The notes under the pieces were generated by a model. It did not search any database. It saw nothing but the letters and a program-made list of their open reading frames with translations, and was not told where the DNA came from. A program made the translations under genes and the position numbers. From Pseudomonas sp. PDM15 (GTDB lineage Bacteria > Pseudomonadota > Gammaproteobacteria > Pseudomonadales > Pseudomonadaceae), in contig NZ_JACVAA010000005.1 in assembly GCF_014851565.1 (NCBI RefSeq), forward strand, positions 186,001 through 250,000: DNA of 64,000 nt, given 5' to 3'. Every line of letters starts with the position of its first letter. Within the stretch, counting starts at the first letter, position 1. This document shows, piece after piece, positions 15,868-31,550 of the stretch.

Positions 15868-16482
15868 ATGAACAGCCAACCCCTGCGCGTCGGTATCGGC
15901 GGCCCGGTCGGGTCGGGCAAGACCGCCCTGACCCTGGCCCTGTGCCAAGCCCTGCGCGAGCGCTACAACATCGCCGTGGTCACCAACGACATCTACACCC
16001 AGGAAGACGCCCAGTTCCTGGTGCGCAACGAGGCCCTGGCGCCCGAGCGCATCATCGGCGTTGAGACCGGCGGCTGCCCGCACACGGCGATCCGCGAGGA
16101 CGCCTCGATCAACCTGGAGGCGGTCGACCAGCTCAACCGGCGCTTCCCCGGCCTCGACCTGATCATCGTCGAATCCGGCGGCGACAACCTGTCCGCCACC
16201 TTCAGCCCGGAGCTGTCGGACCTGACCCTGTACGTGATCGACGTCTCCGCCGGCGACAAGCTGCCGCGCAAGGGCGGCCCGGGCATCTGCAAGTCCGACC
16301 TGCTGGTGATCAACAAGATCGATCTGGCGCCCATGGTCGGCGCCTCGCTGGAAGTGATGGACCGCGACGCCCGCAAGATGCGCGGCGACAAGCCGTTCGT
16401 GTTCAGCAACCAGAAGGTCGGCCAGGGTCTCGATGAGATCATCGCCTTTATCGAACGCCACGGCATGCTTAGTGCCGCTTAA
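15868..16482 (+). CDS. ureG: Urease accessory GTPase UreG
   Basis: 204-residue SIMIBI-class GTPase that powers nickel insertion. P-loop GPVGSGKT (residues 12-19), the Ni-binding Cys-Pro-His ([11 protein letters not shown], near 66-76), and the guanine motif NKID are all present. AAGGA precedes ATG 15868, 16 bases after ureF. Confidence 0.97.
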
Positions 16483-16490
16483 GCCATGAC

Positions 16491-16526
16491 TCCCTCTCCC
16501 CTCGGGAGAGGGCTGGGGTGAGGGAC
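16491..16526. repeat. REP-like palindromic element
   Basis: CCCTCTCCC and GGGAGAGGG form a 9-bp stem with a 3-base loop, followed by CTGGGGTGAGGG, the tail commonly seen in a dispersed repeat of pseudomonads and other proteobacteria. Lies between ureG and the HupE/UreJ gene. Only one copy is seen in this window. Confidence 0.6.
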
Positions 16527-16564
16527 ACCCCGCCAACGCCATGCCTTACCAGGAGTACTCATCA

Positions 16565-17137
16565 ATGAATCTGCGCAAAACCCTGTTCGCCATAGCCCTG
16601 TTCCTCAGCCCGGCGCTGGCCTTCGCCCATGCCGGCCATGACCACTCCGGCCTGATGGCGGGCGTCGCCCACCCGGTCACCGGCCTCGATCATCTGCTGG
16701 CGATGCTCGCTGTCGGCCTGTGGGCCGCGCAGCAGAGCGGCGCTGCACGCTGGGCGCTGCCGGGCACCTTCGTCGCCACCATGCTGCTCGGCGGCCTGCT
16801 CGGCTTCGCCGGGATGGAAATCCCACTGATGGAAACCGGCATCGCCGGCTCGGTGCTGGCCTTCGGCCTGCTGGTGGCGGTGGCCGCACGCCTGCCGCTG
16901 GCCGTGTCGCTCGGCCTCACCGGCCTGCTCGCCCTGACCCACGGCGTGGCCCACGGCCTGGAATTGCCGGAGCTGGCCAGCCCCTGGGGCTATGCCGCAG
17001 GCTTCGTGGCCGCCACCGCCGCCCTGCATGGCCTGGGCTACGCGGTCGTGCGTTACCTGCCGCGCGCCGCCGCGCCACTGGTGCGCCTGGCCGGTGCTGC
17101 TTCGGCGGGTGCCGGGGTCTGGCTGCTGGCCAGCTGA
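16565..17137 (+). CDS. HupE/UreJ family membrane protein (likely nickel permease)
   Basis: 190 residues: a signal-like first helix ending in AFA|HAGHDHSG, then six hydrophobic segments. The signature HPVTGLDHLLAMLAVGLWA and later LTHGVAHGLE are the metal-ligand motifs of HupE/UreJ secondary nickel transporters. Location after ureG supports nickel supply to urease. Start ATG 16565 has AGGAG ten bases upstream; the in-frame ATG at 16541 is less likely because the resulting signal peptide would be abnormal. Confidence 0.88.
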   Translation: MNLRKTLFAIALFLSPALAFAHAGHDHSGLMAGVAHPVTGLDHLLAMLAVGLWAAQQSGAARWALPGTFVATMLLGGLLGFAGMEIPLMETGIAGSVLAFGLLVAVAARLPLAVSLGLTGLLALTHGVAHGLELPELASPWGYAAGFVAATAALHGLGYAVVRYLPRAAAPLVRLAGAASAGAGVWLLAS

Positions 17138-17149
17138 GAAAGCGCTCAC

Positions 17150-17168
17150 GGGCGTGCCCGGCACGCCC
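17150..17168. terminator. Possible terminator hairpin after the HupE/UreJ gene
   Basis: GGGCGTGCC and GGCACGCCC are perfect complements around a single base. There is no real T-run, so it may only stabilise the 3' end. Confidence 0.35.
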
Positions 17169-17206
17169 TTGCTAGACTGGCGGGGTCTATCTCCACGGTT
17201 CCCGCC

Positions 17207-18100
17207 ATGCCTGTTCGTCCTCGCCGCGCGCTGATCGGCCTGCTGCTGTTGTGCTCCTCGATCGCCCACGGTGCGCAACCGCAAGGCCTGGAAGTGACGT
17301 GGAACATGAGCCCCTGGCCGGGGCTGATCAACATGCAGGACGGCCGCCCCAGCGACGGCATCATCGTCGACGTACTGCAGCAGATCATCCAGCGCCTGCC
17401 GCAGTACCAGCACCACTACCGGATGAACAACCTCACCCGCGGCCTGGAGCAGCTCAAGCGCGAGCCGCTGAGCTGCTTCCTGCCGACCTTCCCCACGCCC
17501 GAGCGCGACCAGCACGGCTACTACGTCGGCCTGTTCGTGGCCATGCCGCACCAGCTGGTGGTGCGCACCGCCGACCTGCAGCGCTTCAGCAAGGGCCAGG
17601 GCGAAGTGTCGATCCGCCAGCTGTTGCGCGACAACCAGCTGCGCGGCGGTCTGGTGCGCGACCGCAGCTACGGGCCGATCCTCGACCCGCTGCTGCAGGC
17701 GCCCGAGGCCCTACCACAGCTGCAGCGCATCCAGACCAGCAGCGCCGGCAGCAACCTCTACGGCATGCTCGAACACCACCGCATCGACTACCTGCTGGAC
17801 TACGCCGAAGTGGTGCAGTACGTGCAGCGCCAGCAGGGTGTGGCCCAGGGCCTGAGCCTGCTGCCGCTGAGCGAGGCCAGTTCGCCCTACGTCAGCGGCA
17901 TCTACTGCAGCAGGAACGCCGAGGGTGCCGAGCTGGTCCGCCAGATCGACCGGATCGCCCGCCTGCCCGAGGTCATCGCCTTGTTCATCGAGGCGCAGAA
18001 GGCCTATATGCCGCCGCGCACCCTGGCCCACTACCAACCCTGGCTGGATCGCTTCTTCGCCGAACGGCCGCACAAGGACCTGACCAACCTGCCGCGCTAA
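17207..18100 (+). CDS. Periplasmic solute-binding-like protein, function unknown
   Basis: 297 residues with a signal peptide (about 24, cleaved after IAHG/AQ). The body resembles family-3 periplasmic binding domains (SBP_bac_3-like, TIGR02285 type): VTWNMSPWPGLIN, SDGIIVDVLQQIIQRLP and a C-terminal YVSGIYCSRN segment. There are no transporter genes beside it, so it may be an orphan sensor or binding protein. No clear operon partner. Confidence 0.7.
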   Translation: MPVRPRRALIGLLLLCSSIAHGAQPQGLEVTWNMSPWPGLINMQDGRPSDGIIVDVLQQIIQRLPQYQHHYRMNNLTRGLEQLKREPLSCFLPTFPTPERDQHGYYVGLFVAMPHQLVVRTADLQRFSKGQGEVSIRQLLRDNQLRGGLVRDRSYGPILDPLLQAPEALPQLQRIQTSSAGSNLYGMLEHHRIDYLLDYAEVVQYVQRQQGVAQGLSLLPLSEASSPYVSGIYCSRNAEGAELVRQIDRIARLPEVIALFIEAQKAYMPPRTLAHYQPWLDRFFAERPHKDLTNLPR

Positions 18101-18187
18101 TCGCTATGACGGCCATCGAGACAATCTACGGGCCGATGCCACAGTGCCGGCCTAATCTGGCGGCCAGCCCCACGCGGAGATGCCGCC

Positions 18188-18271
18188 ATGCCCATCCACG
18201 ATTTCCTCTACGCCCTGCTGGCCTGCTACGCGGCCGGCGCCAGTGGTACTTGCCCGCAAGAGCTCGCCTGA
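18188..18271 (+). CDS. Possible 27-residue small protein
   Basis: ATG 18188 with GGAG ten bases upstream opens a short frame ([18 protein letters not shown]...) with one hydrophobic stretch, in the gap before the LOG gene. No homolog recognised; it could be a real small protein, a decayed gene start, or chance. Confidence 0.2.
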
Positions 18272-18323
18272 CCGATCGGACAGGGTTACCCTGTGCAGCC
18301 TTTTTCGCCTGGGAGCACCCTGC

Positions 18324-18905
18324 ATGAGCCTGAAGTCCGTCTGCGTGTTCTGCGGCGCCAGCCCCGGCGCGCGCCCGATCTACCGTGAAGCCGCCGAGAA
18401 CCTCGGCCGCAGCCTGGCCGAGCGCGGCCTGACCCTGGTCTACGGCGGCGGCGCCGTCGGCCTGATGGGCGTGGTGGCGGATGCGGCCCTGGCCGCCGGC
18501 GGCGAAGTGATCGGCATCATCCCGCAGAGCCTGGAACGCGCCGAGATCGGCCACAAGGGCCTCACCCGCCTGGAAGTGGTGGACGGCATGCACGCGCGCA
18601 AGGCACGCATGGCCGCGCTGGCCGACGCCTTCATCTCCCTGCCCGGCGGCCTCGGCACCCTGGAAGAGATGTTCGAGGTGTGGACCTGGGGCCAGCTCGG
18701 CTACCACGCCAAGCCGCTGGGCCTGCTGGAGGTGGAAGGTTTCTACGCACGCCTGACCGATTTCCTCGACCACCTGGTGGCCGAGCGCTTCGTCCGCGAA
18801 CCCCACCGCGCCATGCTGCAGGTCGGCGAGTCGCCGACCGAACTGCTCGATCGCCTGGCGGCCTGGCAGCCCACCGTCGCGCCCAAGTGGGTCGACCGCT
18901 CGTAA
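18324..18905 (+). CDS. LOG family protein (nucleoside-monophosphate phosphoribohydrolase type)
   Basis: 193 residues, Rossmann-fold LOG family (TIGR00730). The diagnostic PGGxGTxxE is present as [12 protein letters not shown] (about residue 108) and the FCGASPG motif at 11-17; GGGAVGLMG follows. The plant and bacterial enzymes release free cytokinin-type bases or ribose-phosphate from AMP-like nucleotides. Start ATG 18324 gives the family N-terminus [13 protein letters not shown]; the open frame before it is not conserved. Same order (LOG, TPR, MscS) as PA4923-PA4925. Confidence 0.9.
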
Positions 18906-18978
18906 CGCCTGCGAGGCCGATGACAGTAGCTCGACGCCATGCTACACAGAGGCTCCACCCAACAAGGATGTTTCGCCC

Positions 18979-19746
18979 ATGCCCCTGCTCGCGTTGCTGC
19001 TCATCGCCTGCCAGATCGTCTGTGGCCTGCACGTGGTCCGTAGCGGCCAGGAGCGCTACTGGCTGTACCTGATCATCGCCCTGCCCGGCCTCGGCTGCCT
19101 GATCTACTTCCTCGGCGTGATGCTGCCGGACATGCTCGGCAGCCGCAGCGGCCGTCGCGCGATCAACCAGCTGCACGACCGCCTCGACCCCGAGCGCCAT
19201 CTGCGCGCCCTGCGCGATGCCCTGGACCTGAGTGACACCCGCGAGACCCGCGTGCAGCTGGCCGACGAACTGCTGCGCCTGGAGCAATCCGCCGAGGCCG
19301 CCGACCACTATCGCGCCGCCCTGCGCGGGGTACATAGTCACGCGCCGGACATCATGCTCGGCCTGGCCCGCGCCCAGTTCGCCCTGGACAACGCTGCCGG
19401 TTGCCGCGAGACGCTGGACCAACTGATCCAGCACAACCCGCAGTACCGCTCCGCCGACGGCCACCTGCTGTATGCCCGCGCCCTGAGCCGGCTCGGCGAG
19501 CTGGCCAAGGCCGAGGAGGAATTCCACGCCCTGCTAGGCCACTTCGCCGGCCCCGAGGCGCGCTACCACTACGCCCAGCTGCTGCGCCAGGCCAACCGCA
19601 ATAGCGAGGCCCGCGCCCAGCTGGAGCAGATCGATCTGTACGCGCGGCGCGCGCCCAAGCACTACCGCAACCTGCACCAGGCCTGCCTGGCCCAGGTGCG
19701 CGAGGAACTCAAGGCGCTGGACGCCCCGCAGCAGCAGAGCGCCTGA
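18979..19746 (+). CDS. Membrane-anchored TPR protein
   Basis: 255 residues. Two N-terminal hydrophobic segments (3-18 and 27-48) resemble a phospholipase_D-nuclease N-terminal type anchor, followed by about four tetratricopeptide-like helical hairpins (from residue 75, e.g. EAADHYRAALRG, AKAEEEFHALL). Likely a cytoplasmic scaffold at the inner membrane; partner unknown. Same neighbour as PA4924. Converges with mscS at 19756. Confidence 0.75.
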   Translation: MPLLALLLIACQIVCGLHVVRSGQERYWLYLIIALPGLGCLIYFLGVMLPDMLGSRSGRRAINQLHDRLDPERHLRALRDALDLSDTRETRVQLADELLRLEQSAEAADHYRAALRGVHSHAPDIMLGLARAQFALDNAAGCRETLDQLIQHNPQYRSADGHLLYARALSRLGELAKAEEEFHALLGHFAGPEARYHYAQLLRQANRNSEARAQLEQIDLYARRAPKHYRNLHQACLAQVREELKALDAPQQQSA

Positions 19747-19755
19747 CGCCAGCCC

Positions 19756-20610
19756 TCAGCCGGCGGCCTGCTGGACGATCACCGTCTGCGCCGCCATCGG
19801 TGCCGGGAAACCGGCCTCGCCGAGAGCGTCCTTGATCACCTTGTTGCTGTCGAAGTAGACCTGCCAGTAGTGATCGGTGTGGCAGTAGGGCCGCACCGCC
19901 AGCACCGGGCCGACCAGGTTGAACTCGAGAATCTCCACGTCCACCGCCGGCGTCGCCAGCACGTTGTCGATGGCTGTGATGCGCTGCTTGAGCAGGGCCA
20001 CGGCGGCCTTCCAGTCGGTGGCGCCGGACAGCTGGGCGACCAGGTCGACGCGGCGGAAGGCGTTGTGCGAGAAGTTCTGGATGTTGTCGCTGAAGATCTT
20101 GTTGTTGCCCACCAGAGTCAGCACATTGTCCGGCGTGTTGATCGCGGTGACGAACAGGCCGATCTCGGTGACGGTACCGGTGACCCCGCCGGCGCAGATG
20201 AAATCACCCACCTTGAACGGCCGCAGCACGATGATGAAGCCGCCCGCCGCCATATTGGCCAGCAGCCCGGACCAGGCCATGCCGATGGCCAGACCGACCG
20301 CCGCGATCAGGGCCGCGAAGGTGGTGGTCTGCACCCCGAAGTAGCCGAGGATGCCGATCACCAGCAGGATGTTCAGCGTCACCGTGATGAAGTTGCCCAC
20401 GTAGCGCAGCACGGTCGGGTCGACCTTCTGCCGTCCCAGGGCCTTCTGCACCAGGCCTACGGCGAAGCCGATCAGCCAGCGCCCGATCACCCAGAAGGCA
20501 ATGGCCGCAAGGATCTTCGCGGCGAAGGCGGCACCGTACTGCGCCACCATGTCCATCAGCTGGTTGACCTTGGTGGTACCCACCGTGATCAGCGATTCGC
20601 CCTCTTCCAT
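19756..20610 (-). CDS. mscS: Small-conductance mechanosensitive channel MscS
   Basis: 284 residues, three N-terminal helices and a cytoplasmic vestibule. The pore helix shows the Gly/Ala pattern AALIAAVGLAIGMAWSGLLAN and is followed by the conserved beta-domain entry FKVGDFICAGGVTGTV and the NTPDN/VGNNKIFSDNIQNFS motif. Opens under membrane tension in hypo-osmotic shock. ATG 20610 with GAGGACA upstream is preferred over the longer frame to 20709. Confidence 0.92.
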   Translation of the reverse strand: MEEGESLITVGTTKVNQLMDMVAQYGAAFAAKILAAIAFWVIGRWLIGFAVGLVQKALGRQKVDPTVLRYVGNFITVTLNILLVIGILGYFGVQTTTFAALIAAVGLAIGMAWSGLLANMAAGGFIIVLRPFKVGDFICAGGVTGTVTEIGLFVTAINTPDNVLTLVGNNKIFSDNIQNFSHNAFRRVDLVAQLSGATDWKAAVALLKQRITAIDNVLATPAVDVEILEFNLVGPVLAVRPYCHTDHYWQVYFDSNKVIKDALGEAGFPAPMAAQTVIVQQAAG

Positions 20611-20760
20611 TGCCCTGTCCTCGCATGCCGTGAATGACAGCAGGAACGCTAGCACGCCATGGCCGAAACGCCTTGGCGTGGCGTCCGCTTTGCCGTTACG
20701 GCAAGGCACTTGGCCATCGTATACACTGCTGAAGCGTCCCCTCGCTTCCCGGTCCGCCCC

Positions 20761-21798
20761 ATGCGCCCGATCCTGGTGTTGCTCGCAGTTCTGCTACCCC
20801 TGGCCCCGGGCTTTGCCGCTGCCAGCGAGGCGGTGCTGCGGCTGCTGACCTGGCCCGGCTATGCCGACGCCGACCTGGTGGCGCAGTTCGAGCAACAGCA
20901 CGACGTGCGGGTGGAAGTCACCCTGGTTGGCAACGACGACGTGCTGCGCAGCAAGCTGGCGAAGAACAAAGGCGGCGACTACGACCTGATCGCCGCCAAC
21001 ACTGCCGAGATCGAGCGCTACATCGACCAGGGTCTCTTGCAGCCGCTGCAGCCGACGCGCATCGCCAATACCACCCGCCAGCTCTGGCGCTTCCGCGACT
21101 ACCCGAAGATTCCCGGCATCAGCCGCGACGGCAAGGTCTACGCCATCCCCTACACCTATTCGGAGATGGGCCTGATCTATGACCGCAGCCAGTTCAGCAG
21201 CCCGCCGCAGTCCATCACCAGCCTCTGGGACCCGCAGCTGCAGGGCCGGGTGCTGGCCTTCAATGGCAGCAGCCACAACTTCTCCCTGGCCAGCCAGGCA
21301 CGCGGTCGCGACCCGTTCCGTATCGAGCCAGACGACTTCCCTCTGCTCACCGAGCAGCTGATCGCCCTGCGCCGCAACGTGCTGACCTTCTATTCGCTGC
21401 CGGAGGAGGCGGCCAGCCTGTTCCAGGAGCACAAGGTCGCGCTGTTGTTCGCCAACTACGGGCGCCAGCAGCTCAAGCAGCTGCGCGACAGCGGCGCCGA
21501 CGTCGGCTACGTGATCCCCCGCGAGGGCGCCCTGGCCTGGCTCGACTGCTGGGCGATCAGCCGCGGCGCCAGTGACCTGAAGCTGGCCGAAGCCTGGATC
21601 AACTTCGCCCTGGAGCCGCCGATGAGCCGCGCCCTGGTCGAGCGCCAGGGCCTGTCCAACACCCTGCAAGAGGAGGAAAGCAGCGGCGTGCCCGGACGCA
21701 TGATCTGGCTGCGCCCGGTCGAGGACACCGAGCGCCGGACCCGCCTGTGGGAACGCATTCTCTCCGGCGAACGCCCGCCGCTGACGGAGGCGCCATGA
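20761..21798 (+). CDS. PotD-like periplasmic binding protein
   Basis: 345 residues with a signal peptide (cleavage near AAA|SEAV). Spermidine/putrescine-type binding fold: LRLLTWPGYADADLVAQFEQQ opening, GGDYDLIAAN, and YAIPYTYSEMGLIYD hinge region. There is no ABC permease or ATPase nearby. Its TGA overlaps the ATG of the diguanylate cyclase gene (ATGA), so the two products are made together; the known parallel is NspS, a PotD-like protein that signals to the membrane protein MbaA in Vibrio cholerae. Ligand is unknown. Confidence 0.85.
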   Translation: MRPILVLLAVLLPLAPGFAAASEAVLRLLTWPGYADADLVAQFEQQHDVRVEVTLVGNDDVLRSKLAKNKGGDYDLIAANTAEIERYIDQGLLQPLQPTRIANTTRQLWRFRDYPKIPGISRDGKVYAIPYTYSEMGLIYDRSQFSSPPQSITSLWDPQLQGRVLAFNGSSHNFSLASQARGRDPFRIEPDDFPLLTEQLIALRRNVLTFYSLPEEAASLFQEHKVALLFANYGRQQLKQLRDSGADVGYVIPREGALAWLDCWAISRGASDLKLAEAWINFALEPPMSRALVERQGLSNTLQEEESSGVPGRMIWLRPVEDTERRTRLWERILSGERPPLTEAP

Positions 21799-23507
21799 AG
21801 TTCGGCATCGCCTTCAAGCTCGGCTGCCTGCTGGCGGTGTTCGGCGTGCTGGTCTGCGGCCTGACCGGCTACTACTCCTACAGCAGCAGCCGCGCCATCC
21901 TGCTCAAGGCCGCCGAGCGCGACCTGCTCACCGCCACCCAGGTACTCGGCCGCAACCTGCGCGGCAGTATCGACGGTGTGGCCCGCGACGCCCTGCTCAT
22001 GGCCGCAGTATCCAGGGCCCGCGAGTTGCCCCGGGTAAATGACGAGGACCACCGCGAACACAGCGAGCATGACCTGGCCGAGCTGTTCCGCGCCCAGATG
22101 CAGGTGCACCCCGAGTACATGCAGATCCGCCTGATCAGCGCCACCGGCCACGGCCTGGAGCAGGTGCGCATCGACCGCGACGGCGAGCGTCTACTGAATA
22201 TCGGCGGCGCCGAGCTGCAGGAGAAAGGTCACTACGCCTACGTGTTCGACACCCTGCGCCTGCCGCCGGGCGAGGTGCGCCTGTCGCCCATCGTGATCAA
22301 CCATGAGCTGGGCGCCCACTCCGGTCTGGGCAAGCCGACCCTGCATGTGTCCACCCCGGTAGCCGACGCCGACGGCAAGGCCGGCGCCCTGATCGTGATC
22401 AACGTCGACCTAGACCAGATGTTCGACCAGATCAAGAGCGACCTGCCCAGCCACTATCAGGTGTACCTGAGCAACCGCTGGGGCGACCTGCTGATCCACC
22501 CCGACCATCGCCGCACCTTCGGCTTCGACCAGGGACGTCGACTGTTCATCCAGGAGGAGTTCCCCGATGTCGCCGCCCTGCTCGGCGACGGCAAGCAGAG
22601 CAGCCTGATCAGTCATACCGACGAAAGCGGCCACGATCTGGTGGCCGCGTTCGTCCGTGTCGCTGTCAACGCCAGCACCCCGGAACGCTTCATCATCCTC
22701 GGCCTGGCCCAGCCGGAGGACCATGTGCTGGCGGAGACCACACGCCTCGGCCGGCGCATCATCCAGGTGGTGATCCTCTCCAGCCTGCTGGCCCTGGCCA
22801 TCGCCATCGTCGCCTCGCGGGCCATGACCCATTCGCTGAAGAGCATCACCCTGGCCGTGCAACAGTTCACTCGCGAGCGCCGCAGCGGTCCGCTGCCGGT
22901 GCAGCGCCAGGACGAGCTGGGCCAGCTGGCACGCAGCTTCGCGCAGATGCAGGAGGAGATCCTCGACCAGCTCGACGAGCTCAACCAGAGCCGCAACGCC
23001 CTGGAGCACCTGGCGCGCCACGATGCGCTCACCGGCCTGCCCAACCGGCGCATGTTCTTCGAACGCCTGGACCACGCCCTGGCCAACGCCCGGCGTAGCG
23101 CCATGCCGCTGGCCGTTTTGTTCGTCGACCTGGATCACTTCAAGCAGCTCAACGACAGCCTCGGCCACGGCGCCGGTGACCGCGTGCTGCAGGCAGTGGC
23201 CAACCTGCTGCGCTCCGCCACCCGCGAGAGCGACACGGTGGCGCGCCTGGGCGGCGACGAGTTCGTCATCCTGATCGAGCAGATGGACGATCCGCAGCGG
23301 GTAATCGCGGTTCTGCACAAGCTGCACGAGCGCTTCCAGCTGCCCATGCTGCTGGACGGCCACGAGGTACAGGTGCAGGCCAGCATGGGCGTCAGCCTGT
23401 TCCCACGCGACGGCGACGATATCGAATCGCTGCTGCAGCAGGCCGACCGCGCCATGTACGCGGCCAAGAACGCCGGGCGCAACACCTACAGCTACGAGGC
23501 CCGCTGA
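21795..23507 (+). CDS. Membrane diguanylate cyclase with periplasmic sensor domain
   Basis: 570 residues. TM1 about 5-27, a large periplasmic double-Cache-type domain (about 30-318), TM2 320-341, HAMP to about 395, then a GGDEF domain. Catalytic GGDEF is intact at 486-490 and the inhibitory RxxD site is RESD at 477-480, five residues upstream, so product feedback is expected. No EAL domain. Makes cyclic di-GMP from GTP in response to a periplasmic signal, possibly delivered by the overlapping upstream binding protein. Confidence 0.92.
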   Translation: MKFGIAFKLGCLLAVFGVLVCGLTGYYSYSSSRAILLKAAERDLLTATQVLGRNLRGSIDGVARDALLMAAVSRARELPRVNDEDHREHSEHDLAELFRAQMQVHPEYMQIRLISATGHGLEQVRIDRDGERLLNIGGAELQEKGHYAYVFDTLRLPPGEVRLSPIVINHELGAHSGLGKPTLHVSTPVADADGKAGALIVINVDLDQMFDQIKSDLPSHYQVYLSNRWGDLLIHPDHRRTFGFDQGRRLFIQEEFPDVAALLGDGKQSSLISHTDESGHDLVAAFVRVAVNASTPERFIILGLAQPEDHVLAETTRLGRRIIQVVILSSLLALAIAIVASRAMTHSLKSITLAVQQFTRERRSGPLPVQRQDELGQLARSFAQMQEEILDQLDELNQSRNALEHLARHDALTGLPNRRMFFERLDHALANARRSAMPLAVLFVDLDHFKQLNDSLGHGAGDRVLQAVANLLRSATRESDTVARLGGDEFVILIEQMDDPQRVIAVLHKLHERFQLPMLLDGHEVQVQASMGVSLFPRDGDDIESLLQQADRAMYAAKNAGRNTYSYEAR

Positions 23508-23621
23508 GCCTTTGCCGCCGGCGTTCGGCACCGGGGTACTGGTCACCGCCGCCCCCTCAGTTTTCTCCTATCGCGACCTCGCCGACACGCCGTCTATGCT
23601 TGCCTTAACGCTTATCACCAG

Positions 23622-24629
23622 GTGCCTCCAGTGCTTCCACTGCTGGTCTGCGACGACTCCACCATGGCGCGCAAGCAGCTGATCCGCGCCCTGCCCCCCG
23701 AATGGCCGGTGACCATTACCCAGGCCAGCCAGGGCGAGGAAGCCATGGCCGCGATTCGCCAGGGCCTCGGCCAGGTGGTGCTGCTGGACCTGACCATGCC
23801 GGTGATGGACGGCTACCAGGTGTTGGCCAAGGTCCGCGAGGAAGGGCTGGATTGCCGCATTCTGGTGGTCTCCGGCGATATCCAGGACGAAGCCCAGCGG
23901 CGGGTCGCCGAGCTCGGCGCCCTGGGCTTCATCCAGAAGCCGGCGCCGGCCGAGGAGCTGCGGGCCACCCTCGAACGCCTCGGCCTGTTCCAGCCCCCCG
24001 CTAGCGGCGAATCCGCACCGGCCCATGAAGAACCGCTGTTCAAGGTCGGTTTCCGCGACGCCCTGCGCGAGGTCAGCAACGTTGCCATGGGCCGCGCCGC
24101 CGCCCTGCTGGCCGCAGAGCTGGGCGTGTTCGTGCAGCTGCCGATTCCCCAGGTCAACCTGTTCGAGGTCAGCGAGCTGCACATGGCTCTGGAGGACGCG
24201 CGGCGTGGCGAGCACCTCAGCGCCGTGTGCCAGGGCTTCATCGGCGAGGCCATCGCCGGCGAGGCGCTGCTGCTGTTCCATGATTCGGAGGTGGCCGACA
24301 TCGCCCAGCTGCTCGGCTGGCAGCCGAAGGACGCCGGCGAGACCTCGGAGATGCTGCTGGACCTGGCCAGCATCCTGATCGGCGCCTGCCTGGCCGGCAT
24401 CGCCGAGCAGATCGACATCCGCTTCTCCCAGGGCCACCCGCAGCTGCTCGGCCAGCACGCCGCCATCGGCGAGCTGATCCAGCTCAATCGCGAGCGCTGG
24501 AAGAAGACCCTAGCGGTGGAGATCAGCTATGGCCTGGAGGGCCACGCCGTGCATTTCGACCTGCTCCTGCTGTTCACCGAGGACTCGCTGCCCCGGCTGA
24601 CCGACAAGATCCGTTACCTGATGGAGTGA
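23622..24629 (+). CDS. Response regulator with CheC/CheX-like phosphatase domain
   Basis: 335 residues. Receiver domain 1-120 with acidic pair D11-D12, phospho-acceptor D56 (VLLDLTMPVMDGY) and K106 (FIQKPAP). From 140 a CheC/CheX/FliY-like domain: the first phosphatase motif is intact (REVSNVAMGRAAALL, E150 and N153), while the second helix (EMLLDLASILIGACL) has lost the canonical Asn. Predicted to dephosphorylate a receiver, perhaps its own. Start is GTG 23622 or GTG 23631; both have weak ribosome sites. The PAS gene follows after three bases. Confidence 0.85.
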   Translation: MPPVLPLLVCDDSTMARKQLIRALPPEWPVTITQASQGEEAMAAIRQGLGQVVLLDLTMPVMDGYQVLAKVREEGLDCRILVVSGDIQDEAQRRVAELGALGFIQKPAPAEELRATLERLGLFQPPASGESAPAHEEPLFKVGFRDALREVSNVAMGRAAALLAAELGVFVQLPIPQVNLFEVSELHMALEDARRGEHLSAVCQGFIGEAIAGEALLLFHDSEVADIAQLLGWQPKDAGETSEMLLDLASILIGACLAGIAEQIDIRFSQGHPQLLGQHAAIGELIQLNRERWKKTLAVEISYGLEGHAVHFDLLLLFTEDSLPRLTDKIRYLME

Positions 24630-24632
24630 CCC

Positions 24633-25076
24633 ATGACCGGCCGCGCGCAGATCGACATGCAGGAACTGCACTGGCTGCTCGATATCGTCCAGTGCCTGGA
24701 CGTGGGCGTGCTGGTGCTGGACCGCCAGTACCGCATCGAGGTGTGGAACAGCTTCATGGAGAACCACTCCGGCCTGGGCGCCGACCAGGTGCAGGGCCGC
24801 GAGCTGTTCGAGCTGTTCCCGGAGATCGACCGGGCCTGGCTGGAGCGCAAGGTCAACAGCGTGCTGCGCCTGGGTACCCGCGCCTTCAGCCTGTGGCAAC
24901 AGCGCCCGTACCTGCTGCGCTTCAAGAGCTACCGGCCGATCACCGGCCAGGCCGACTTCATGTACCAGAATCTCACCGTGCTGCCGCTGGCCGCGTCGCG
25001 GGGCCGGGTCGAGCACGTGTGCCTGGTGATCTATGACATGACCGACGCCGCCGTCGCTCAATTGCGCGGCGGCTAG
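24633..25076 (+). CDS. Stand-alone PAS domain protein
   Basis: 147 residues, essentially one PAS fold: ILVLDRQYRIEVWN-type core (VGVLVLDRQYRIEVWNSFME), GRELFELFPEID, and the closing beta-sheet VEHVCLVIYDMTD. No output domain. Begins three bases after the response regulator stop, so the two are co-translated; it may feed a signal to that regulator or to the membrane cyclase. Ends three bases before the convergent helicase stop. Confidence 0.85.
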   Translation: MTGRAQIDMQELHWLLDIVQCLDVGVLVLDRQYRIEVWNSFMENHSGLGADQVQGRELFELFPEIDRAWLERKVNSVLRLGTRAFSLWQQRPYLLRFKSYRPITGQADFMYQNLTVLPLAASRGRVEHVCLVIYDMTDAAVAQLRGG

Positions 25077-25079
25077 GCC

Positions 25080-26426
25080 TCAGCGCTTTTTCGGCCCCGG
25101 CTTGGGCTTCTCGCCGAACCTGGGCACGGCGCGCACGGCCTTGGCCTTGGGCTTGTCGTCCTCCGCATCAAACCAATTACCCAGGTGGATCTTGCCCTTG
25201 CCGCCCGCACCGGTGCCGGGGATCAGCTTCTGCTTGGGTTTCTTCGGCTTCTTCAGTACCGCGCCGCTGGCGTCGGTCACCGGCACCCGGTGGTCCGGCT
25301 CGAAGCCCGGTTCGTCCTGACGACGGATCACCTGACGGGTCAGCACCTCGATGGCCGCCAGCATTTGCACCTCGTCGGCGCACACCAGCGACACCGCCTC
25401 GCCGGTGGCCCCGGCACGGCCGGTACGACCGATGCGGTGCACGTAGTCCTCGGCGACGATGGGCAGGTCAAGATTGACCACCAGCGGCAGATCGTCGATG
25501 TCCAGGCCGCGGGCCGCCACATCGGTGGCCACCAGCACCCGCACCTCACCGGCCTTGAACCGCTGCAGCGCGCGCAGGCGCGACGGCTGCGGCTTGTCGC
25601 CATGGATCGAGTCGGCGGCGATGCCTTCGGCCAGCAGCAGCTGCTCCAGCTCGTCGACACCCTTGCGGGTCTTGCCGAACACCAGCAGCTGGTCCCAGCC
25701 GCGCTCGCGGTACAGGTGCAGGAACAGCTCGCTCTTGCGCTTCTTGTCCACGGTCACCAGCCACTGCTTGACGCCCTTGGCCGTGGCGTTGCGCGGGCTA
25801 ACCTCAATGGACAGCGGGTCGCGCAGCAGCTCCTTGGCCATCTGCCGGATGGCATCGGAAAAGGTGGCGGAGAACAGCAGGGTCTGGCGTTTGCGCGGCA
25901 GGGCGGCGAACAGCTCGTCCAGCTCGCTGGCGAAACCCAGGTCGAGCATGCGGTCGGCCTCGTCCAGCACCAGCGCCTGCAGCTGGTCGAAGCGCACCGC
26001 GTTCTGCCGGTACAGGTCGAGCAGCCGACCGGGCGTGGCCACCAGCAGGTCGATGCCTTTGCGCAGCTTGAGCATCTGCGGGTTGATGCTGACCCCGCCA
26101 TACACCGAGTAGGTGCGCAGCGGCAGGTTCTGCGCGTACTGCTGCACGGTCTGCTGCACCTGCTCGGCCAGCTCGCGGGTCGGCACCAGCACCAGCGCAC
26201 GCACCGAGTTGGCCGCCACCTGGCTGCCTTCCATCGTCAGTTTTTGCAGCAGCGGCAGGGCGAAACCGGCGGTCTTGCCGGTGCCGGTCTGCGCCGCGGC
26301 GAGCACGTCGCGGCCCTTGAGCACGGCAGGGATCGCCTCCTTCTGCACCGGCGTCGGCGTGCGGTAGTCGAGCGCCTCGAGGGTGCGCAGGATTGGATCG
26401 ATCAGGCCGAGGGTGGCAAAGGACAT
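25080..26426 (-). CDS. DEAD-box ATP-dependent RNA helicase, RhlE-like
   Basis: 448 residues. Ordered motifs: Q motif with TPTPVQKEAIP, I AAQTGTGKT, Ia PTRELAEQ, Ib TPGRLLD, II DEAD, III SAT, IV LVFGKTRKG, V ATDVAARGLDID, VI HRIGRTGRAG. C-terminus is a basic, low-complexity tail rich in Lys/Pro that likely grips RNA. Role: unwinding in ribosome assembly, mRNA decay or cold response. Start ATG 26426 (MSFATLGL) is the family start; the frame continues upstream without homology. Confidence 0.93.
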   Translation of the reverse strand: MSFATLGLIDPILRTLEALDYRTPTPVQKEAIPAVLKGRDVLAAAQTGTGKTAGFALPLLQKLTMEGSQVAANSVRALVLVPTRELAEQVQQTVQQYAQNLPLRTYSVYGGVSINPQMLKLRKGIDLLVATPGRLLDLYRQNAVRFDQLQALVLDEADRMLDLGFASELDELFAALPRKRQTLLFSATFSDAIRQMAKELLRDPLSIEVSPRNATAKGVKQWLVTVDKKRKSELFLHLYRERGWDQLLVFGKTRKGVDELEQLLLAEGIAADSIHGDKPQPSRLRALQRFKAGEVRVLVATDVAARGLDIDDLPLVVNLDLPIVAEDYVHRIGRTGRAGATGEAVSLVCADEVQMLAAIEVLTRQVIRRQDEPGFEPDHRVPVTDASGAVLKKPKKPKQKLIPGTGAGGKGKIHLGNWFDAEDDKPKAKAVRAVPRFGEKPKPGPKKR

Positions 26427-26482
26427 GGGGCGGAACCGGCAGGGGAACGAGCGCGCATTGTACCCGCTGCGCAGGGTTGCGC

Positions 26483-28540
26483 TCAGCCCTGCTTCTGCAT
26501 CTGCCGCAGCAGCGGCGTGCACTGGCTGGGCTCGTCGCCGCCGCTGGGCGCCACCAGCGCCAGCAGGCCGGCCGCCGGCGCCACCGCCACGCCGAGCGCC
26601 ACCAGGCCGGCGCCGCGCAGGGCCAGCGGTGTGCCCTTGACCCCGGCGTCGGGATTCTTGAAGGTGCCACGCACGAACAGCGGCGAGCGCAGGGAGAAGA
26701 TGCGCAGGCCCTTGGCCGCGGGGGTGACGACGAAATCGAGGCGCTCCTCGGCGAAGCTGGCGCTGCCGTCGACCTTGACCACTGCATTCTCGGTATCGAC
26801 CACGAACAGCCGACTGCTCATCAGCCCGTTGCGGATGCCGAGGTCGGCGGCGGCGCAGTTGATCTGTACCTCCTCGTCGCCGAACAGCTTGCCGACCAGG
26901 TAGTTGCCGACGTTGAGCCCGGCGATCTCCAGCAGGCCACGGCTCACCGCGCCATCGTTGATCAGCATCTTCAGCTCGCCATCGGCGCTGCCCAGCAGGG
27001 CCGCCACCGAGTTGCCGGTGCCACTCAGTTTGGCGTCGCCATTCAGCGCGCCGAGGCTGGTCTGCATCGGCGCGAAGGTGGGAAATAGCTGCTTGAGCTT
27101 GAGATCGCGGGCGCTCAGGCGCGCCTGCCCGCGCATCGGCACCTGCGCACCGTTCAGACGAATCTGCGCATCCAGCGTGCCGCCGGCCATGCCGAAGCGC
27201 AGGGGCTCCAGACTGAGCACACCGTCGTTGAGCACCAGGTGGGTATCCAGGTCGCGGATCGGCAGTTTCTCGTCATGCACGATGCGCTTGCCGGTGAAGC
27301 GTACGTCAGCGTCCATGCTGCGCCAGCGCTCGGTGCGAAACTCCTCCACCGGCAGCACCTTGTTCGCCGGCTGGCGGGCGGCGGCGCCGCGGGCCTTCTT
27401 CTCGGCATTGGAATCGGCGCCGATCAGCGGCGCCAGGTCGGCGAACAGCAGCTGGCTGGAGGTCAGCTGGCCGGACAGCTTGGGCCGCGGCTGGCGATTG
27501 ACGAAGGTCAGGTCGCCGTGGATATCGCTGTCGCCGATGCGTCCGTTGAAGCCCTGGTAGCGGAACAGCGCACCGTTGACGTCACGCAGGTCCGCCTGCA
27601 GGCGGCCATCGGTGCTGTACGGCGGGGTGTCCGGCAGGGTCACGCCGGTCAGCGGATAGAGTTGGCTCAGGCTGGCCCCGGCTAGCTGCAGGCGCAGGTC
27701 GAGGGCGCCGAGGTTCTGCGGATCGGTCAGGCTGCCGGCGACCCGGATGCGCGTGGCGCCGATGCGCACATCGGCCTGCAACGGGAATGGCAGGCTGGCA
27801 TCCTGCAACGCCAGCAGGCCGCCGACCTTGCCGCTGCCGCTCACCGCCTGGCCCTGAAAACGCCCCTTGGCACGCCAGGCGAAGGCGTAGTCCTGGGCCG
27901 CCGCATGTTCGTCGGCCAGGCGCTTGGCGGCGCTGTCACCGACTATCTGGGCAAACGGGATGGGCGCGCCGAGCGGATCTATCTGCGCCTCGAGGCGGGT
28001 CTTCGACACTTGGTCATCGAGGCTGACCACGCCCTGATCGAAGCCTATGGTGCCGATATCCAGGGTCCAGGGGCTCGGCTCGGCGACCTCATCCGTCTGC
28101 TCGCCACCCAGGTCGAAGGTCCAGTTGGCGCGGCCGTCGGCCAGGCGCTGCAGGCTGGCGTATGGCGCGCCGAGCTCGATGCGCGGGATGCTCACGGTCT
28201 TCCACAGCAGCGGCAGCGGTGCCAGGCGGAACTGCACCCGGTCCAGGCTGACGAAGGTGTCGCCCTCGGCCCACTCGGGATTGCCCAGGTTCAGCTGTTC
28301 GGCGGCGAAATGCGGCCAAGGCAGCCAGGCGCGCCAGCCACCCTCCTCCGATTCGCGCTGCCAGACCACGCTGAGGTTGCCCTCGATGGCGAACGGCCGG
28401 TTCAAGGCCTGCGACACCTTGTCATTGATGGTCGGGCGCAGCAGATTCCAGTCGAACAGCACGAGAAACAGCATGAGCCCCGCGACCGCCAGAAGCAGTA
28501 CGGCCAATGCGCCGCTCACCCACTTGCGAATCCGCAGCAT
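26483..28540 (-). CDS. AsmA family protein
   Basis: 685 residues. One N-terminal transmembrane helix (about 10-29) anchors a long periplasmic beta-rich body; the AsmA C-terminal region (GDAKLSGTGNSVAALLGSADGEL, AADLGIRNGLM) is plain. AsmA-like proteins are thought to bridge the periplasm for phospholipid transport and outer-membrane homeostasis. Ends in a short hydrophobic Ala/Gly stretch near residue 655 and a Cys (SQCTPLL). Divergent from tatD. Confidence 0.87.
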   Translation of the reverse strand: MLRIRKWVSGALAVLLLAVAGLMLFLVLFDWNLLRPTINDKVSQALNRPFAIEGNLSVVWQRESEEGGWRAWLPWPHFAAEQLNLGNPEWAEGDTFVSLDRVQFRLAPLPLLWKTVSIPRIELGAPYASLQRLADGRANWTFDLGGEQTDEVAEPSPWTLDIGTIGFDQGVVSLDDQVSKTRLEAQIDPLGAPIPFAQIVGDSAAKRLADEHAAAQDYAFAWRAKGRFQGQAVSGSGKVGGLLALQDASLPFPLQADVRIGATRIRVAGSLTDPQNLGALDLRLQLAGASLSQLYPLTGVTLPDTPPYSTDGRLQADLRDVNGALFRYQGFNGRIGDSDIHGDLTFVNRQPRPKLSGQLTSSQLLFADLAPLIGADSNAEKKARGAAARQPANKVLPVEEFRTERWRSMDADVRFTGKRIVHDEKLPIRDLDTHLVLNDGVLSLEPLRFGMAGGTLDAQIRLNGAQVPMRGQARLSARDLKLKQLFPTFAPMQTSLGALNGDAKLSGTGNSVAALLGSADGELKMLINDGAVSRGLLEIAGLNVGNYLVGKLFGDEEVQINCAAADLGIRNGLMSSRLFVVDTENAVVKVDGSASFAEERLDFVVTPAAKGLRIFSLRSPLFVRGTFKNPDAGVKGTPLALRGAGLVALGVAVAPAAGLLALVAPSGGDEPSQCTPLLRQMQKQG

Positions 28541-28656
28541 CCCTCGATTCCCGCTATGACTACTGCAGTTTCGACTGACGAAACGCGGGAACGCTCCCCA
28601 TGCTGGTGCACTCGAGTGAAATACCCGATGCTGGAACCTTCAACCGGACCCGCCCC

Positions 28657-29439
28657 ATGCAGCTGATCGATACCCACACCCACCTCGACTTCCCCGACTT
28701 CGACGCCGACCGCGCCGAGCTGCTGGCGCGCAGCCGCGCAGCGGGTGTGGAGAAGCTGGTGGTGCTCGGCGTGTACCGGGACAACTGGCAACGTCTATGG
28801 GACCTGGTGCAGAACAACGAGGGCCTGTATGCCGCCTTCGGCCTGCACCCGGTGTACCTGCAGCAGCACCGACCCGAGCATCTGGATCAGCTGCGCGAGT
28901 GGCTGCAACGCCTGGCCGGGCACCCACTCCTGTGCGCGGTGGGCGAGTTCGGCCTGGACTATTACGTGGAGAGCCTGGATCGCGCGCACCAGCAGCAGCT
29001 GTTCGAGGCGCAGCTCGACCTGGCCGCCGAGTTCGAGCTGCCCGTCCTGCTGCATGTCCGGCGCGCCCACGCGGCGACCATCGCCACGCTCAAGCGCTAC
29101 AGGCTGCCACGTGGCGGGGTGATCCATGCCTTCGCCGGCAGCTACGAGGAGGCGCGCGAATACATACGCCTCGGCTTCAGGCTCGGCCTAGGCGGCGCGC
29201 CGACCTGGCCCCAGGCCCTGCGCCTGCGCAAGGTGATTGCGCGCCTGCCGCTGGAGGCCATAGTGCTGGAGACCGACGCGCCTGACATGGCCCCGGCCAT
29301 GCACCCGGGCATGCGCAACAGCCCGGAACATCTGCCGGATATCTGCGCCGCCCTGGCCGAACTGTGCGACGTGATGCCGGAGGAACTGGCCCGCGCCAGC
29401 AGCCGCAATGCGGCCGAGCTGTTCGGCTGGTCGCTCTGA
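28657..29439 (+). CDS. TatD family metal-dependent hydrolase
   Basis: 260 residues, amidohydrolase-like TIM barrel. Metal ligands: DTHTHLDF (residues 4-11), the Glu of AVGEFGLDYY, HVRRAH, VIHAFAG and the final Asp of ETDAPDM. Members are 3'-5' DNases or act on damaged DNA ends; closest in style to the YjjV branch. ATG 28657 gives MQLIDTHTH; longer frame from 28600 is not conserved. Confidence 0.92.
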   Translation: MQLIDTHTHLDFPDFDADRAELLARSRAAGVEKLVVLGVYRDNWQRLWDLVQNNEGLYAAFGLHPVYLQQHRPEHLDQLREWLQRLAGHPLLCAVGEFGLDYYVESLDRAHQQQLFEAQLDLAAEFELPVLLHVRRAHAATIATLKRYRLPRGGVIHAFAGSYEEAREYIRLGFRLGLGGAPTWPQALRLRKVIARLPLEAIVLETDAPDMAPAMHPGMRNSPEHLPDICAALAELCDVMPEELARASSRNAAELFGWSL

Positions 29440-29477
29440 GAGAAGACTGAAACGGGTTTCACGCGCCCTATAACGAC

Positions 29478-29501
29478 AAGGCCCGCCGATTGGCGGGCCT
29501 T
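29478..29501. terminator. Bidirectional terminator between tatD and chemoreceptor
   Basis: AAGGCCCGCC and GGCGGGCCTT around a GATT loop, 38 bases after the tatD stop and 18 before the chemoreceptor stop. T-runs are modest on both strands. Confidence 0.8.
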
Positions 29502-29519
29502 GCTTGCTGCGGCGGCAGA

Positions 29520-31550
29520 TCAGACGCGGAAGGCGCCGATCAGCTCTTTCAGGCGCGCCACCTGATCGGACAGCGCGCGGCTGGCCTGCTCGGTCTCGAC
29601 GGCACCCTCGGCAGTGCGCTCGCCAGCCTGGTTGATTTCGACGATGTTCATGTCGATATCGTGGGCCACGGCGGTCTGCTGCTCGGCGGCGGCGGCGATC
29701 TGCTGGTTCTGGTCGACGATCATGCCGACCGCACCGAGGATGTTCTCCAGCGCGTGCTGCACCTGGGCCGACTGGTTTACGGTATTCTCGACCATCTGGT
29801 GGCTGCCGTTCATGGCCGTCACCGTGGCACCCACGCCGCTCTGCAGGCGACCGATCATCTGCTCGATCTCTTCGGTGGACTGATGGGTGCGCTTGGCCAG
29901 GTTACGCACCTCGTCGGCCACCACGGCGAAACCGCGGCCCTGTTCGCCGGCCCGCGCCGCCTCGATGGCGGCGTTGAGCGCCAGCAGGTTGGTCTGCCCG
30001 GCGATGCCCTTGATCACGTCCAGCACCTGGCTGATCGAGGCGCTGTCGGCGGCCAGCTGGTTGATCACCGTCACCGACTGGTCGATCTCGCTGGCCAGAC
30101 GCTGGATGCTGCCGACCTGGGACTCGACCATGGCGCGACCGCTGACGGTCTCGTCGTTGACGCTCTGCGCACTGCCCACCGCGGCCGCGGCGCTGCGCGC
30201 CACCTCCTGGGCGGTGGCGGACATCTGGTTCATCGCGGTGGCCACCTGCTCGATCTGCCCGCGTTGGGCGGACACGGCCTGGCTGCTCTCGCCGGAGACC
30301 AGCTCGACGCGATCGGCCTGGCGTTCCACTTCGGTGACAGTCTGGCCCACCAGCTCGATCAGGTCGCGGATCTTCGCCACGGTGCCGTTGAACACCTGGC
30401 CCAACTCGCCCAGCTCGTCCTGGCTCTTGACGTTGACGCGCACGGTCATGTCGCCGGCGGCGACCTGGCCGAGGGTCTTGCCGAAGCCCTTGAGGGTGCT
30501 GCGGGTCGAGACGTAGAAGCCGCCATACAGGTAGCCGATGGCGAGGAACAGCACCACCAGCGCCACGACCAGCAGGACCATCTGGGTACGCTTCTGCTCC
30601 AGGCGCTGGCTCAGTTCCTTGTCGAGGAAGTCGAGTACCGAGTCGTTCAGTGCGTAGGTCTTGTCGATGGCCGCGCTGAGCTGGTCATAGAAGCCCTGCC
30701 AGGGCGCATCCAGACTGTCGGCCATGAGCAGCTGCTCTTCCAGCACCGCGCTGACCTCGGTCAGGCTGTTGCGGCTGGCCTCGGCCCTGTCACCCAGCTC
30801 GCGCTTGGCATGGGCGTTGCCATCCAGCGCGCTCTGCAGCTTGAAGCCGTACTCGGCGTGCAGCTTCTCCAGCTCCAGCAGCAGCTCGTCGAGCTTGGTG
30901 CTGTCGGAAGAACCAAGAATGCCCTGACCCAGGGAGTAGGAGCCCAGGGCGCGGCCCTTGCTCAGGGCCTCGGTCACCGGAGGGCTGGCGGTGGTCATCA
31001 GCTCGGTCATCTGCCGCACGGTCAGTTCACTGTCTTGGCTGAGGCCGGACTGGCTGGCGACGAACTTGATGAACACCTCGGAGTTGTCCAGCGCCTTGAC
31101 CACCAGGCCGGCCTTGCTGCGCAGGGATGACTCGGCGGACACCGCATCCATGGCCGACTTGATGGCATCGCGCTGGGCGTTGAACTCCTCGATCTTCTGC
31201 GCGTCATCACTGGGCGACTCCAGCGCAGCCAGCATCTCGCTGACGCCGCTCTCCAGCGGACCGATCAGCGCGGTCAGCTTTTCCGCTTCACCGGACTGAC
31301 CGAGGACGGCATTGATCTCGTAGAGATCGTTGAGGCGCTCCAGATCCTGGCGCATCTTCATGCTCTGCTTGAGCAGCGCAAGGCTCTGCAGCTCGGTGCG
31401 CGTATCGACGAAGGCGTCGTAGGACTCGCGCACCAGGAAGTAGTTGGTGACCAGCATGGGCAGGAAGAACAGCACGCTGATCAGGCTGAACTTCATGCCG
31501 AAGCTCATGCGGTTCATCAGAGCGATGGCAGGGTACAACACGCTATTCAC
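29520..31550 (-). CDS. Methyl-accepting chemotaxis protein
   Basis: 676 residues. TM1 about 20-38 after [19 protein letters not shown], an all-helical periplasmic sensor of about 270 residues (long helical-bundle type), TM2 about 320-340, HAMP ([20 protein letters not shown]), and a long signalling coiled coil with the hairpin tip [19 protein letters not shown]. No CheR-tethering pentapeptide at the end (KELIGAFRV). Start is GTG 31550 with GGAGA eight bases upstream; the frame upstream of it lacks a ribosome site. Homologous position to PA4520 next to ampE. Confidence 0.93.

Follow-up and report, generated by a model that had tools for sequence, protein, structure and literature searches.

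Do the four adjacent genes at positions 20,761 to 25,076 of the DNA analyzed here make up a single signaling cassette for cyclic di-GMP (c-di-GMP), or do they belong to separate systems that stand side by side? The DNA, referred to below as the window, is a stretch of 64,000 nucleotides from Pseudomonas sp. PDM15 (contig NZ_JACVAA010000005.1, positions 186,001 to 250,000), and the genes, all on its + strand, encode a periplasmic binding protein (SBP), a sensor cyclase, a fusion of a receiver to a CheC-like domain, and a lone PAS protein. A first-pass annotation had treated them as one cassette, and its account of the layout, four same-strand genes with an ATGA overlap between the first two and gaps of 114 and 3 bases thereafter, is exact to the base. 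The analysis presented here favors a different functional reading, to which we assign a probability of about 0.68: the four genes make up two neighboring modules that evolve separately, namely module A, a unit of SBP and cyclase, and module B, a unit of receiver-CheC and PAS protein.

A conserved pair of binding protein and cyclase

The SBP gene (20,761-21,798, 345 amino acids) encodes a protein of the PotD/PotF fold with an SBP_bac_8 domain (E 6e-32), whose N-terminus is hydrophobic and looks like a Sec signal, and in which no lipobox was seen. Its stop codon shares the sequence ATGA (21,795-21,798) with the start of the cyclase gene (21,795-23,507, 570 amino acids). Domain searches place in the cyclase a dCache-type periplasmic sensor region (residues 87-288, 22,053-22,658; PF21623, with dCache_1 under its cut-off), a HAMP domain (residues 340-390, 22,812-22,964), and a GGDEF domain (E 1.9e-55) that scores above its family cut-off and carries the GGDEF motif. 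The sequence RESD-x5-GGDEF, which joins the inhibitory site to the active-site motif, is read at 23,223-23,264, bearing out the earlier description of intact GGDEF and RxxD sites, and by these motifs the cyclase looks active.

The association of the two genes is consistent across every collection surveyed. Among 199 genomes of the genus, searched at an SBP threshold of E <= 1e-60, the SBP was present in 13, and the cyclase, starting with ATG, GTG, or TTG, was directly next in all 13, each time with a 4-bp overlap. A survey of 148 genomes of the family found the SBP in 8, of which 6 were new, and here again the cyclase was directly next in 6/6, overlapping by 4 bp in 2 and following a 2-bp gap in 4, which brings the two surveys combined to 19 of 19 genomes. 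In the best 80 of 487 SBP relatives (the 80 named loci, from Pseudomonas, Acidovorax, Rhodoferax, Thiobacillus, Gallionella, and others, which overlap with the survey genomes), the nearest being Pseudomonas sp. GD04019 (95%) and P. alcaligenes NBRC 14159 (87%), the cyclase was the next gene in 79, the remaining contig ending within the SBP; the 4-bp overlap recurs in 41 of these 79 pairs, and a 3-bp gap separates the genes in 22. The pairing is thus far beyond chance for close relatives of about 55% identity or more, the range to which the linkage claim applies, and the outcome that the first-pass annotation had named as damaging, SBP and cyclase genes found apart in most relatives, did not arise.

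The partner enzyme is similarly uniform. In a set of 75 cyclases, consisting of that of the window and 74 of the 79 downstream cyclases (L167, with a frameshift, and the partial L212, L215, L219, and L224 were omitted), GGDEF and HAMP domains were found in all 75, PF21623 in 72, dCache_1 in 58, and EAL in 1; the motif matches listed for L184 and L203 are spurious and do not mark the active site. Matches to a PotG-like ATPase or permease occur in the flanks of 6 of the 80 named loci, some of these flanks being short, and stand beside the SBP only in L234. This locus (L234:4058-7666) encodes an 849-amino-acid cyclase with GGDEF plus EAL, an ABC ATPase-like match lies 133 bp ahead of its SBP gene, and it may connect the pair with transporter-born or MbaA-like forms. 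At L105/L167 (Pseudomonas sp. UMAB-08), the GGDEF motif is where the reading frame of the cyclase breaks off, leaving 525 amino acids, through either error or decay.

Elsewhere in the class, 29 loci with relatives of the sensor domain were inspected over as much as 1.5 kb in either direction, and none had such an SBP beside the relative. The genus survey gave 18 sensor matches, of which 5 (27-36% identical) likewise had no such SBP within 1.5 kb. Three SBP-free relatives that were typed comprise one histidine kinase, one cyclase, and one protein ending in a PAS domain. The pairing is therefore a property of the module A family and not of the sensor domain generally. In a comparison of 26 of the 75 SBP-linked cyclases with 18 SBP-free relatives, Q49, R53, E143, and H146 are near-invariant in the former and are not the commonest residue in the latter, which makes these four positions candidate SBP contact residues. 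Taken together, the SBP and cyclase are likely to act jointly as a pair that senses in the periplasm; this part of the earlier proposal stands, and the parallel that it drew with polyamine sensing by NspS-MbaA is not supported, for reasons given below.

A receiver-CheC protein followed by a PAS gene

The receiver-CheC fusion (23,622-24,629, 335 amino acids) starts with GTG after the 114-base gap (23,508-23,621) that follows the cyclase, and the lone PAS gene (24,633-25,076, 147 amino acids) begins 3 bases beyond its end. The receiver (Response_reg, E 3e-20) and the PAS domain (PAS_4, E 2.8e-12) are readily recognized. The CheC part matches weakly: NCBIfam CheC at E 1.7e-9, with 37.9 bits where the cut-off is 250, Pfam CheX below threshold (17.7 vs a cut-off of 27), and the PDB structure of CheC 1xkr at E 3.8e-4. 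CheC phosphatase sites have the motif D/S-x3-E-x2-N, and it is intact at site 1 (D146-x3-E150-x2-N153, 24,057-24,080), which gives the protein one such site; the site 2 equivalent (D247-L-A-S250, 24,360-24,371) is degenerate. That one of two sites is kept, as had been described, holds across the family: the CheC part is present in 51 of 54 aligned rows, and all 51 have both E150 and N153, whereas at site 2 the D is accompanied by S in 44 and by T in 7. Loci of one genome enter twice in this alignment, as in the upstream-region set (34 distinct among 39 regions) and the tree discussed below.

It had also been suggested that the receiver-CheC protein resets phosphorylation. Because neither a receiver nor a kinase domain is present in the adjacent cyclase to carry phosphate, the CheC part cannot reset that enzyme by phosphatase action, and its natural substrate would instead be its own or a related receiver.

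Receiver-CheC matches occur in 81 of the 199 genus genomes, and of 94 matches, which count the split genes of G076 and G080 twice, 93 are followed within 283 bp on the same strand by a PAS gene, the remaining one being a split-gene fragment. Classed by open-frame length, these 93 PAS genes comprise 31 lone forms, 60 of GGDEF size, and 2 of kinase size. The PAS paralogue encoded elsewhere in the same genome as the window has a confirmed GGDEF domain, 16/16 GGDEF rows of the tree showed one by match, and a scan of the two kinase forms found HATPase and HisKA domains, with HisKA below its cut-off in one. In G082 (L243:4089-6485, - strand), a receiver, a CheC protein, and a PAS-histidine kinase each have a gene of their own, the three standing next to one another in the order seen here as an unfused relative of module B. 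Lone PAS forms of the window type cluster in the tree (24 rows with support 0.95; 25 rows with 0.53). Six other lone forms (L237-L242) make up a second clade (support 0.92) that is nested among PAS-GGDEF rows, and, given this nesting, the GGDEF domain has probably been lost at least there.

Separability of the two proposed modules

A rival reading is that the four genes form one functional cassette, with module B feeding into or tuning the cyclase. In its favor, the four-gene layout is found in 7 of the 13 pair genomes and 14 of the 80 named loci (all 14 of them Pseudomonas), with a spacing of about 2.8 kb. However, 22 of the 31 genomes with a lone-PAS module B lack the pair, and in G054 module B sits beside the same helicase as in the window with the SBP-cyclase pair absent. 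Conversely, the modules are 1.8 Mb apart in G014 and on different contigs in G109, only a GGDEF-type module B, elsewhere in the genome, is present in G126 and G023, and the genus survey gave no receiver-CheC match in G128 or G086. The single cassette of the first-pass annotation is thus better described as one group's arrangement, and as a general explanation we regard it as distinctly unlikely.

The region upstream of module B points in the same direction. The element CTATGCT, at 23,594-23,600 in the window, occurs upstream of receiver-CheC in 39/39 regions of the window type, compared with an expectation of 0.2 from shuffles that preserve base content only, and in 0/16 upstream regions of the paralogous type. 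It lies 27-56 bases from the receiver-CheC start (94 in one genome), and it is present both where module A is directly upstream (21 regions) and where it is not (18 regions). TATGCT would fit a -10-like hexamer, and module B probably has its own promoter, judging from this conservation. Separate transcription of the two halves, which the earlier annotation had named as evidence against itself, is accordingly indicated at the level of sequence. A four-gene operon as a general unit was considered and rejected on the same grounds.

Several observations weigh against the two-module reading or parts of it. A consensus promoter scan gave no sigma-70 site, so the argument for a promoter of module B is one from conservation, and the sole terminator-like match lies inside the cyclase gene. 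The pair and a lone-PAS module B co-occur in 9 genus genomes vs 2.0 expected (hypergeometric 8e-6, uncorrected for relatedness), which counts in favor of a single cassette and leaves room for a functional tie, although shared ancestry could explain it. Within module A, the core residues of the sensor are common to the SBP-linked and SBP-free relatives (26 vs 18 rows); the cyclase could therefore bind a ligand itself, which speaks against a sensor domain that responds to the SBP only. Direct contact between SBP and sensor is something that we infer, and neighboring SBP and receptor genes need not encode partners: the interaction tests in PMC11113362 were negative for AgtS with AgtB or with PA0602 and for AruS with PA4985.

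The binding pocket and its ligand

Given the gene order, the most obvious candidate ligand is a polyamine, with the SBP passing polyamine signals to the cyclase as in NspS-MbaA. The gene order and overlap are alike, and the fold agrees: an AlphaFold2 model of the SBP built from 71 alignment rows (pLDDT 90.8; an earlier 13-row model with pLDDT 49.4 was not used) has its best matches in YdcS (Z 34.3) and PotF/PotD (Z about 32). By profile, however, the SBP scores 67.1 and 64.8 bits against NCBIfam PotD and PotF, missing both cut-offs (582 and 636). The PotF pocket comprises a proximal group (S38, D39, D247), an aromatic box (W37, W244, F276), and a distal group (S85, S87, A182, E185, D278, L348); W37, D247, D278, E185, and D39 are conserved in 96% or more of 250 PotF hits, and altering the proximal group abolished putrescine binding (PMC8666671).

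We compared these positions in an alignment of 63 of the SBPs from the 79 loci in which it was readable, that of the window (64 family rows in all), and 7 own-genome paralogues. D39 is replaced by G and E185 by H in 64/64 family rows, D247 mainly by R (27), Q (15), S (9), or T (9), and W244 by N in 63/64. D278 and W37 are kept in 64/64, and the F276 position is W in 63/64. Only one of the four amine-binding carboxylates (D39, E185, D247, and D278) is thus retained. As a control, the 7 paralogues, which are of PotD/F type, have D39 and D278 in 7/7, an acid at E185 in 7/7, and D247 in 5/7 in the same alignment. Because the SBP family as a whole has lost three of the four carboxylates of PotF and one residue of its three-membered aromatic box, a linear polyamine is an improbable ligand, and the true one would be expected to carry at most one strongly held amine. 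It is therefore unlikely that the module A SBP is a polyamine sensor, and although the retention of the W37 and D278 equivalents counts in favor of an NspS-MbaA-like role, with EAL also absent in 74/75 cyclases we consider that role very improbable.

The same dismantled site could instead mean that the SBP no longer binds any ligand and serves the cyclase as a permanent structural subunit, sensing being left to the dCache domain with a ligand of its own, and the sensor core residues shared with SBP-free receptors are consistent with this. In contrast, the cleft is invariant in its new form, with window residues G33, H172, and D262 present in 64/64 and N232 in 63/64, as if it were under selection for a different ligand. 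A fixed partner is an unlikely explanation, and we favor an SBP that senses a non-polyamine solute as part of module A. Members of the SBP_bac_8 family with such ligands are known, as PA0602 and PA4985 prefer gamma-aminobutyric acid (GABA) and AgtB takes 5-aminovalerate (PMC11113362). Genomic context offered no further hint, since among the 25 largest clusters of flanking open reading frames, only the SBP and the cyclase (with their antisense shadow) occurred in more than 21 of the 80 named loci.

Surroundings of the locus

Around the locus lie ureE, ureG, a TIGR02285-like protein, a TIGR00730 protein, a TPR protein, and a divergent MscS-type channel; downstream is a convergent RhlE1 helicase followed by a weak AsmA match and a TatD-family protein. 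No transporter subunit was found among 17 typed window genes (some typed twice, two matching nothing), in agreement with the first-pass annotation, and Rfam at gathering scores gave no match in 16,000-30,000. All four genes of the locus are under purifying selection (dN/dS 0.04-0.45 in 24 pairwise comparisons). The MscS-type channel gene (19,756-20,709, - strand) is near the SBP in 21/80 named loci, compared with 14/80 for receiver-CheC. The TIGR02285-like protein (17,207-18,100, + strand), which scores 123.3 bits against a cut-off of 143.3 and has no Pfam match, is near the pair in 9/80.

Discussion

In the mechanism proposed here, synthesis of the SBP would be coupled translationally to that of the dCache-HAMP-GGDEF cyclase, as the overlap suggests, and the SBP would report a periplasmic solute to the sensor domain of the cyclase and thereby set c-di-GMP; binding of the loaded SBP, the sign of the response, and the ligand are all points that we infer. 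In module B, the receiver would be phosphorylated by a kinase and dephosphorylated by the CheC part, with its state read out through the PAS protein, and a lone PAS protein without an effector of its own would presumably act by protein contact. A broader proposal, which we advance tentatively and regard as possible rather than probable, is that module A represents a widespread, undescribed class of SBP-controlled cyclases of Pseudomonas and betaproteobacteria converting a new, non-polyamine solute into a c-di-GMP signal and that module B is a swappable phospho-switch, its core linked to a kinase, to a cyclase, or to neither, with the lone PAS protein working in trans in the last case.

There are few worked cases of the control of c-di-GMP enzymes by an SBP, namely NspS-MbaA and ScrB-ScrC. 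Module A is kept across Pseudomonas and many betaproteobacteria with a pocket that is invariant but rewired, and, if the reading given here is true, it would add another, possibly larger class. As a two-gene unit, it is also easily tested. Among the matches listed in a search of the open-licence literature, no title or abstract dealt with the SBP-cyclase pair or with receiver-CheC and PAS.

The closest parallel to module A is NspS-MbaA of Vibrio cholerae, Sinorhizobium meliloti, and P. stutzeri, in which a PotD-like SBP gene likewise stands directly upstream of a membrane c-di-GMP enzyme, usually overlapping it, and module A shares this order, with genes overlapping or nearly so and no transporter. 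The logic of the two systems may be the same. The NspS-MbaA receptor, however, has GGDEF plus EAL, whereas module A cyclases have GGDEF only, with RxxD in the window. The pockets also differ: the core residues of NspS are W41, Y233, D236, W261, and D263 (PMC9993111), and their equivalents in the SBP, located from the spacing of motifs and through the alignment to PotF rather than from the NspS sequence, are W31, N232, R235, W260, and D262, so that 3/5 are kept and Y233 and D236 have no counterpart. PotF, PotD, SpuD, SpuE, and YdcS resemble the SBP in fold (Z about 29-34) and in the W37/D278 equivalents, but differ from it at three of the four key carboxylates and W244 and in having a transporter operon, which is absent here. 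The GABA and 5-aminovalerate proteins PA0602, PA4985, and AgtB and the GABA binders Atu4243/iGABASnFR share the Pfam family or the fold (Z about 25-26), so the SBP fold can accommodate non-polyamine ligands. It is a guess, based on family and fold and not on the pocket, that the ligand of module A resembles theirs.

For module B, CheC-type CheY-P phosphatases such as Thermotoga CheC are similar in one intact D-x3-E-x2-N site and in the tie to a receiver, to which the CheC part is fused or, in G082 and apparently G180, beside which it is encoded. Module B differs in its degenerate site 2 and in the PAS gene that comes next in 93/94 matches. Its nearest relatives are the receiver-CheC and PAS-GGDEF genes of other Pseudomonas and of the same genome (G000:C33, L118), which have the same gene order and a receiver-CheC protein 64.6% identical to that of the window, whereas the PAS protein of the window lacks the GGDEF domain. 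The series of PAS partners that accompanies this core, with kinase, cyclase, and lone forms, amounts to a natural experiment in the swapping and loss of effectors.

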